Notes under the pieces: generated by a model
The model's input: only the letters and a program-made list of their open reading frames with translations
The model's database searches: none
Told to the model about the DNA's origin: nothing
Program-made: the position numbers and the translations under genes
Origin: Paralichthys olivaceus
Lineage: Eukaryota; Chordata; Actinopteri; Pleuronectiformes; Paralichthyidae
Length of the DNA stretch: 64,000 nucleotides
Direction of reading: 5' to 3'
Assembly (NCBI RefSeq): GCF_024713975.1
Contig: NC_091102.1
Coordinates: 11,475,001 to 11,539,000 of the forward strand
In this document: positions 57,725-60,700 of the stretch, one piece after another
Layout of the letters: each line of letters begins with the position of its first letter
Position numbering within the stretch: position 1 is the first letter of the stretch

Positions 57725-60700
57725 TCATTTATCTTGCTCTTGGACATCTTTGCCTTCAACCTCCTTTTCGCTTTTGTCTTTTTCATATTTGTCTTTCCCA
57801 TTTGTCGTCATGCTGTTAGATGACAGGTGAGAGGCAGATGAAGGTGCTAGTTCGCTTTTATCAGCGCTAGATTTTCTTCTTAGTTCATCTGTGATGACCT
57901 CCTCATTGTCAATGAGTGTTTCGTTCTTTTGAATGTCATCACTGGGAGTGTCAGAGGGTTTACAGGCAGGATTGTTCTTTGCATACTCTCTGAATGCTCT
58001 CTGGATGACGATGGCAGACATTTCCTCGTGTTTGCGGCGGAGAGTGGTAGTGATGGGTTCATAGGACACTTTGGAGGGATTGGAGGCCATGAAGCGCTCC
58101 TCCATCTGCCCCCTCAGGACATCCATCTCCCCACCCTCACCTAGAACACGTTTTGTGAATGCAAACAGGATGTCCAGGCAGTGAATGCGTTCACCACTCA
58201 CCATTGGAAGATCCATGGACATCAGCTCGAGCTTGTTAGGCTTGGCAATGCGCAAAGGCGGGTCCAGGTCGTCTGCGAAATCGGACAGCTTATTGTACTC
58301 CATGAATTGTGACACATGAGGATCAAACCTTTCCCACACCTCATAGAACATTTCAAAATCATCCTCGCTTAGTGGGTCTGCACTCTCCTCAGTGGCCACA
58401 CTGAAGTTTTCCAGGATGACTGCAATGTACATGTTCACCACAATCAGGAAACAGATTATGATGTAGCTCACAAAGAAAGCAATCCCTACAGCAGTATTTC
58501 CACAGTCTCCTACAATAGAGCTGCCGGGATGCATTTTATTTTTGTCACAATCTTCATCTTTGTTGAGAATGGGAGCGAGTAGGCCATCCCAGCCTGCTGA
58601 AGTGGTGATCTGGAACAGACAGATCATGCTGTTGCCAAACGTCTCAAAATTGAAAAGATCGTCAATGCCAGCCTCTTTCTTGACGTACGCAAAGCTTGAC
58701 ATGCCGAAGATGGCATAAATAAACATCACCAAGAAGAGCAGGAGGCCGATGTTGAACAAGGCAGGGAGTGACATCATCAAGGCAAACAAGAGTGTGCGGA
58801 TTCCTTTGGCACCTTTAATAAGGCGTAGAACGCGGCCAATGCGAGCCAACCGGATGACTCTGAACAAGGTTGGCGAAAGAAAATACTTGTCTATCACTTC
58901 GGAGAGAAACAAACCTGGGGAAAGAAAGCAGAGCCCATGTAATGAACAACATATACTGAGAAAATGAAGGATTATTTTAATTGATATCTGGCGAGTGAAA
59001 AGATGTGGCTCGTACCAATGATTGACAGGATGACCACGATGAAATCAAATACATTCCAACCATTTGTGAAAAAGTAATGACGAAGAGAGATCATCTTCAA
59101 CAAACATTCTCCACTGAAGATGCAAATAAACACTAAATTAATCCTGTAGAGGATGATGGCTGTGCTTTCCTCCTGTTCATCAGTTTCTACCATCATGGTG
59201 ACCATATTGAGCCATATTAGAACCATTATTACAATATCAAAAGCTTGTTTTGTGGTGAAGTCAAAGATGTATCCTTGAATCTTGCTCTGAAATGGAGACG
59301 AGGCAGACAAACAGACATTAGGTGAAATAACTATGGATTCATGATGCAGATAAGAGTCAGTCTTAAATAAGGTCACATACTGATGGTCTGGGAATAGGTT
59401 TTTGTGGTTTCTTTGAGCCAAGCTTTTTCATGGCGTTGTAGTATTTCTTCTGTTCTTCAGTCATGAAGATGTCTTGACCTCCAAAGTAAAGAGGGGATGA
59501 GAGACATGTTAAATCAGAGCAAAGGTGATTTAGAGCAAAAAGTTAAATTAATTAAACTTAAATATTTCCATCAAATAAAAATATCAAATATTGTTTCAAA
59601 GGCAGATTGGTTACTTATCTTTTTCTTTTGCTGATTGAAATTGTCTATGATGACACCAATGAAGAGATTGAGTGCAAAGAAGGCTCCAAATATGATGAAG
59701 ATGACAAAGTACATGTACATAATCATGTTGATCTCATACTCAGGTTGTTCGTCATACTGTAATGATGACAGAAAGTGGAGAAAGTGTCGAAGTTAAGATA
59801 TTAAGATTTCAGGCCTGGTAGATTTGGCAACTGGTACAATTTTGAAAATTCTCGTATTCTGGTGGAAACAAACAATCCTTGAATAGGAAATTGTTGTATT
59901 TGTACATAGCGTCATAGTTCATCTACTTCTTGTTCCACATCCAGAGTCTTATTGTTTTGTGAACATATTTTCAGTTGTAAAGTTTTGGTATACAATAGCA
60001 GTAACTTTTTACAGCTTTGACACAGCACTGTCAAACACAATACAGGTCATTAAAGCAAAACATCTTGCCATATGACAAAATTTTATTTAATCTTAATTCC
60101 TATAACACATTGCCCATACATTGTGCAGCATGATAATTACATAATCTAAATACTATGAATATCTAATAGTGAACATAATACAACCATAAATACTAAAATG
60201 GTTTGTTTAAAATGATAATTTATTACTTAAATGTCCAGTGTGTAAGATTTAGGTGAAAGGGATCTATTGGCAGAAATTAAATGTAGAATAATTCTCATGA
60301 TGTTTTCACTCTTTCATTTCATCCATCGGGTGTTAAGCTGCAACATGTAATTTTAACACTAGATATCGCACAATTCTACACACTGTACCTTTAAAGAATT
60401 TGTGATATTAAAAGTTCAGTGTGTAGAATTTAGGGACATTTAGTGGTGAAGTTGCATGTTGCAGCTGAATGCCCATCACCTCCCCCCACTGCCCTAAGCA
60501 TGAAGGAGAACCTAATGCTAGCAAAAGCTCGAAAGGTGTTTAGTTTGGAAATATAAAGTATTTAAATATAAATGGCCCATTCTAGGGTAAAGAAAACAAC
60601 AATTCGTACAATTTAGATGGAAACATCACTAGGTTTATTTATATTAAATTTCCGCCAATAGATTCCTTTCACCTAAATCTTATACACTGAACCTTTAAAT

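Follow-up and report, generated by a model that had tools for sequence, protein, structure and literature searches.

The window analysed here, i.e. the whole stretch of 64,000 nucleotides from Paralichthys olivaceus, contains the 3' part of a sodium-channel alpha gene, whose features are collected in Table 1. When the 872-amino-acid product was searched against PDB, 31 distinct sequences were recovered at E up to 1e-200, the highest scores being obtained with type 2 (1569 bits), type 3 (1538), type 1 (1522), and type 9 (up to 1517), and the lower ones with type 8 (1494), type 4 (1425), and type 5 (1419). Pfam matched six of the seven open frames examined in the window, one of them being the sodium-channel gene and the five others belonging to the CSRNP, TTC21 (three frames), and glycosyltransferase 2 families. 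These neighbours are consistent with the human gene order CSRNP3-GALNT3-TTC21B-SCN1A. Judged from the domain III-IV sequence, the IFM inactivation gate, and this gene order, the gene fits a vertebrate Nav1 alpha gene of the SCN1A/2A/3A/9A-like group. Besides, near the ttc21-family frames, at 50745-50853, a 44-nt unit is repeated in tandem 2.5 times (73% matches).

Table 1. Coordinates of the sodium-channel gene and of its linker intron in the window, with the evidence for each feature.
Feature	Position	Strand	Evidence or remark
Sodium-channel alpha gene, 3' part, ten exons modelled	57725..63461	-	Continuous open frame, 872 aa, closed by a stop codon; best PDB match type 2
Modelled exons 1-5	63461-63332, 63211-63057, 62805-62632, 62533-62411, 61237-60962	-	
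Modelled exons 6-10	60819-60763, 59756-59619, 59485-59381, 59286-59016, 58914-57725	-	
Upstream exon of 138 nt, covering domain III S6 and the first part of the III-IV linker, end QQKKK	59619..59756	-	
AT-AC intron	59486..59618	-	Sole tested boundary pair yielding the conserved linker peptide; AT...AC in 8/8 detected paralogues, window gene included
5' splice site ATAAGT	59613..59618	-	U2 donor consensus 8/9, U1 duplex -5.5 kcal/mol; U12 donor 3/9
Candidate U2 branch sites CTGAT (59517-59513) and TTAAC (59512-59508)	59508..59517	-	Fit to yUnAy within the final 60 nt
Pyrimidine-rich tract and 3' splice site ...CTCTTTAC	59486..59507	-	C/T content of 85% over the 20 nt that precede the final three bases
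105-nt exon with the IFM inactivation-gate motif	59381..59485	-	Translation; FGG to PRP identical to PDB Nav types 1, 2, and 8
Shadow donor, GT at intron +5/+6	59613..59614	-	U1 duplex -4.0 vs -5.5 kcal/mol for the AT site; consensus 5/9 vs 8/9
Shadow acceptor, AG inside TTTGGAG	59479..59480	-	Nearest AG downstream of the candidate branch sites

Among the nine introns of the gene model, eight are of the GT-AG type, which makes the model unremarkable in other respects, and the only exception is the seventh, i.e. the third from the 3' end of the gene, which is an AT-AC intron of 133 nt in phase 0 located directly before the gate exon. Its ends read AAG/ATAAGT...TTTAC/TTTGGA, the slashes marking the splice sites. 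The earlier note on this DNA had described an intron with ATAAGT and TTTAC ends at 59486..59618, in front of a 105-nt exon, and these coordinates prove exact when the minus strand is read. The upstream exon is preceded by an AG acceptor and translates in frame, PDB Nav chains aligning through it; its 3' end is ...CAGCAAAAGAAAAAG, with 59619 as the last base, the intron runs ATAAGTAACC...CTCTTTAC, and the gate exon starts at 59485 with TTTGGAGGTCAAGACATCTTCATG, giving the junction AAG/ATAAGTAACC...CTCTTTAC/TTTGGAGGT. Besides, the intron preceding the upstream exon harbors nested inverted repeats (60206-60719), with outer arms of 80 nt (60206-60285 and 60640-60719, 80% complementary) enclosing inner arms of 67 nt (60328-60394 and 60408-60474, 79% complementary), an arrangement which resembles a small hairpin transposon inside another.

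The position of the AT-AC intron is imposed by the protein. When donor and acceptor positions around the junction were joined by script and the products translated, 59618/59486 was the only pair giving the conserved linker peptide. In PDB chains named sodium channel type 1, 2, and 8, all 51 residues across the junction are identical to those of the window gene (51/51), which makes a misreading at the protein level unlikely; among the matches listed, two further alignments (type 10) have LGG instead of FGG and one other change. Since the intron position is fixed by the protein, the donor found there matches the U2 consensus at 8 positions out of 9 (all but +1), and AAGATAAGT occurs a single time in the window, both strands being counted, a chance occurrence can be excluded.

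The genome, which comprises 588 Mb in 25 contigs, as is typical of a teleost, was then searched with the gate-exon peptide, the resulting paralogue counts being lower bounds. Nine candidates were scored, and at least eight matches at E <= 0.01 were obtained on eight contigs, the window gene included. In all eight detected paralogues, AAG/AT...AC/ is found at the same codon boundary, with the AC directly before F or L and G codons, in introns whose lengths are 133, 1058, 433, 99, 721, 200, 143, and 112 nt. The donor is ATAAGT in five of them, ATAAGA in two, and ATGAGT in one, G being present at +5 in every case. The earlier note had called for an alignment of the intron ends over fish scn genes; within this genome, the ends are AT...AC in all the detected genes (8/8). 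A strict yUnAy motif is absent from the interval searched in four of the eight paralogues, and also in three of the eight GT-AG introns of the window gene.

An in-frame GT-AG pair overlaps the AT-AC intron (59614/59479), and its use would produce KKKISQDIFM (QQKKKISQDIFM) in a protein of 871 instead of 872 amino acids, with the loss of FGG. The acceptor of this shadow pair has a G at -3, as read from the sequence. A second in-frame GT-AG pair that keeps QDIFM (59656/59479) joins NLFIG to QDIFM, and a third keeps only DIFM. The earlier claim that no GT-AG alternative preserves the conserved junction is thus correct for FGG, which none of the three pairs retains, but incomplete, because 59614/59479 and 59656/59479 maintain both the frame and QDIFM. 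In the window gene, the two donors are 4 nt apart and the two acceptors 7 nt apart, and only the cognate pairs keep the frame: the mixed pairs (AT with AG, GT with AC) shift it and lead to a stop at 356 and 361 amino acids of the modelled part, after domain III. Skipping of the 105-nt exon would keep the frame and lose the gate, leaving 837 amino acids. An equivalent shadow pair, with GT at +5 and an in-frame AG at +4 or +7, is present in six of the eight paralogues and absent from the two with ATAAGA. Such a pair need not be selected, since it follows from the G and T of the donor consensus at +5/+6 and from an A/G codon boundary early in the exon.

One could imagine that the AT-AC intron and the nested GT-AG intron constitute a two-register switch, with the GT-AG register being used at a low and regulated level. 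If this were true, the channels of some neurons would carry KKKIS in place of KKKFGG before QDIFM, the gate hinge and inactivation would be altered, and the mRNA from mixed pairs would be destroyed. We regard such a switch as very unlikely, and splicing of the shadow pair is expected to be at most a rare error. The proposal that splicing mainly uses the nested GT-AG intron (59614-59479), with a protein reading QQKKKISQDIFM, has in its favor the canonical ends, the preserved frame and IFM motif, and the recurrence of an equivalent pair in six of the eight paralogues. It is nonetheless extremely improbable, as it replaces FGG where the PDB alignments listed have FGG or LGG. Aligned to Nav type 1 and type 2 chains, the FGG version reaches 100.3 and 100.2 bits, respectively, and the IS version 89.0 and 89.3 bits. 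In addition, its donor is the weaker one, with 5 consensus matches and a U1 duplex of -4.0 kcal/mol compared to 8 matches and -5.5 kcal/mol for the AT donor, and two paralogues have no GT at +5 while their exons still code FGG. Four ISQDIFM strings were not found in the literature searched, which says little. Conservation and the two paralogues lacking the pair thus lead to the rejection of the nested GT-AG intron as the real one.

The AT-AC intron located at the conserved III-IV linker position of this vertebrate Nav alpha gene almost certainly belongs to the U2-type (type II) class, judging from its splicing signals. In addition to its AT and AC ends, it displays a U2-like donor with G at +5, a pyrimidine tract, and candidate branch sites whose adenosine would lie at -29 (CTGAT) or -24 (TTAAC) from the intron end, if either is used. 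The scores were computed with U1 and U12 reference words. The predicted U1 duplex at the AT donor (-5.5 kcal/mol) is only moderate and lies between the extremes of the eight GT-AG donors in the gene model (-2.9 to -10.8). In the two paralogues with ATAAGA, pairing is weak (-2.8), although a value of -2.9 is also obtained for one GT-AG intron of the window gene. The best U12 branch word of the linker intron matches 6 positions out of 9, which is no better than chance, since 1815 of 2000 mononucleotide shuffles reach this score.

The reading of the linker intron as a U12-type AT-AC intron and a substrate of the minor spliceosome relies on its termini and on the fact that Nav genes do carry a U12 AT-AC intron in domain I, as described in a passage of PMC6259924. 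This domain I S1 intron of Nav and Cav genes resembles the linker intron by its AT start and its presence in the same gene, but it has the minor-spliceosome signals, namely the donor ATATCCTTT and the branch site TTCCTTRAC near the 3' end, whereas the linker intron has neither. The domain-I intron of the window gene, which lies upstream of the window (G000:C10 11549465-11549284) and has a perfect U12 donor and a good branch word, served as a positive control: its donor is ATATCCTTT (9/9), its branch word TTCCTTGAC scores 8/9, which only 12 of 2000 shuffles reached, and its U1 duplex is at +1.6 kcal/mol. Of the six domain-I loci detected in the genome, all have branch words of 8-9/9, and five have the donor ATATCCTTT within the DNA examined. 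The eight linker introns, for their part, display U12 donors of 3-5/9, U12 branch words of 5-7/9, and U1 duplexes of -2.8 to -5.9 kcal/mol. Caution is required in that the best U12-branch-like word reaches 7/9 in three of the eight paralogues; these words cannot be branch sites, since they occupy -9 to -1 and thus run right up to the splice site, and a 7/9 word is likewise present in one of the GT-AG introns of the window gene. Besides, according to a passage of PMC2831892, splicing of SCN4A intron 21 requires the major-type spliceosome. A U12 assignment, with a donor of 3/9 and a chance-level branch word compared to 9/9 and 8/9 in the same gene's own U12 intron, is thus rejected as a most improbable one. 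PMC2831892 raises the idea of a U12-to-U2 conversion, and a relic of a U12 branch site was looked for in the linker intron; the candidate TGATTTAAC (6/9) is equalled by 1815 of 2000 shuffles and provides no support for it.

The end of the domain-I intron deserves a separate remark. In the window gene, the frame (KILVHS-LFNV) is most simply kept with an AA end (...TTCCTTGACAACAGCCTGCAA/A TTG TTC), which would make it an AT-AA intron; the paralogue on contig C21 also has AA at this place, and the other four of the six loci found have AC.

The last reading, in which AT and AC would be assembly errors for GT and AG or the gene a pseudogene, has for it the use of a single assembly and is hardly conceivable given the same termini at eight loci on eight contigs with differing intron lengths, and a gene that is open over 872 codons.

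The relationships between the eight genes were analysed by FastTree on the region from domain III-IV to the C-terminus (459-535 amino acids each, columns placed by tblastn), the tree being unrooted and restricted to the genes of this genome. Four pairs were recovered, (C2,C6), (C16,C17), (C10,C24), and (C5,C21), with supports of 1.000, 1.000, 0.994, and 0.976, respectively. Four pairs would be expected to remain after the two early rounds of vertebrate genome duplication and the later teleost round. The rare splice pair is common to every detected Nav alpha gene with a gate exon (8/8, four pairs), and since four independent origins at one codon boundary are improbable, the AT-AC state most likely predates the four lineages. 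Judging from the sequences of this one genome, the linker intron is probably older than the duplications behind the four vertebrate Nav lineages, the rare splice pair then having been kept for several hundred million years. The earlier note had the splice pair apparently persisting since before the fish-tetrapod split; this view is upheld, and the eight paralogues of one genome argue for a still older origin, before the channel duplications. As an aside, the C21 paralogue codes FGDKDIFM in place of FGGQDIFM, with aspartate for the second glycine before the gate and K for Q; its tree partner is C5.

These observations can be compared with the human genes. A passage of PMC4712308 gives intron 21 of SCN4A (24 exons) and intron 25 of SCN5A (28 exons) as type II AT-AC introns, both being, by exon count, third from the 3' end. 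This bears out the mammalian U2 AT-AC intron that the earlier note had placed at the same position, the likeness with the fish intron residing in the AT-AC ends and in the exon count rather than in the intron letters, and the comparison being made between human genes and a teleost-like SCN1A-type gene. According to PMC2831892, all sodium-channel AT-AC U2-type introns have G at +5, as do the eight fish paralogues. AT-AC pairs are said in an excerpt of PMC4176328 to represent about 0.09% of human splice sites. The class and the position of the intron are therefore already known; what is new is its presence in the eight paralogues of one fish genome, together with a U12 control from the same gene. 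No report of an AT-AC linker intron in a fish was found by title or abstract start among the papers listed, or in passages of PMC6259924, PMC2831892, PMC6865273, and PMC3809569, which is no proof of absence. When the peptide that follows FG was searched as an exact degenerate pattern, no locus was retrieved in viral contigs and none in prokaryote genome contigs, which is expected for a vertebrate gene and hence uninformative.

Regarding the mechanism, U1 and then U6 would most likely recognise AAG/AUAAGU through all positions except +1, as suggested by the sequence and the cited human work. The 3' end would be set by a U2 branch point some 24-29 nt upstream together with the pyrimidine tract; a non-Watson-Crick contact, like that of G and G in a normal intron, may then form between the terminal A and C, such that the AC would be chosen despite the AG located 7 nt downstream. 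By analogy with human SCN4A, the fish intron would be removed by the major spliceosome. The terminal contact is named in a passage of PMC2831892, in which the persistence of such AT-AC introns is put down to several changes being required simultaneously. A single change, at whichever end, would break the contact. The retention in eight of eight paralogues fits this proposal of trapped introns, whose escape would take a change of both ends together. Biologically, the linker AT-AC intron is an ancient inherited peculiarity and is not known to act as a regulatory device.

Finally, the intron has consequences for gene prediction. The earlier note had pointed to the AG inside TTTGGAG as a possible wrong boundary, and this AG does form an in-frame shadow intron with the GT at intron +5; for this reason, a misplaced boundary seems likelier than skipping of the exon. 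A predictor restricted to GT-AG introns would plausibly output a near-normal KKKISQDIFM protein, and the likely annotation error in fish Nav genes would silently exchange FGG for IS in the inactivation gate, with the frame and the IFM motif kept. A splice mutation of SCN4A intron 21 in myotonia (Kubota 2011) reportedly disturbs U1/U6 binding and leads to the insertion of 35 residues in the III-IV loop; it represents a disease allele of the human counterpart intron, in a muscle gene and in mutant form. Since a disease mutation in SCN4A intron 21 is listed in an excerpt of PMC6978732, such an error in fish gene models is worth checking.
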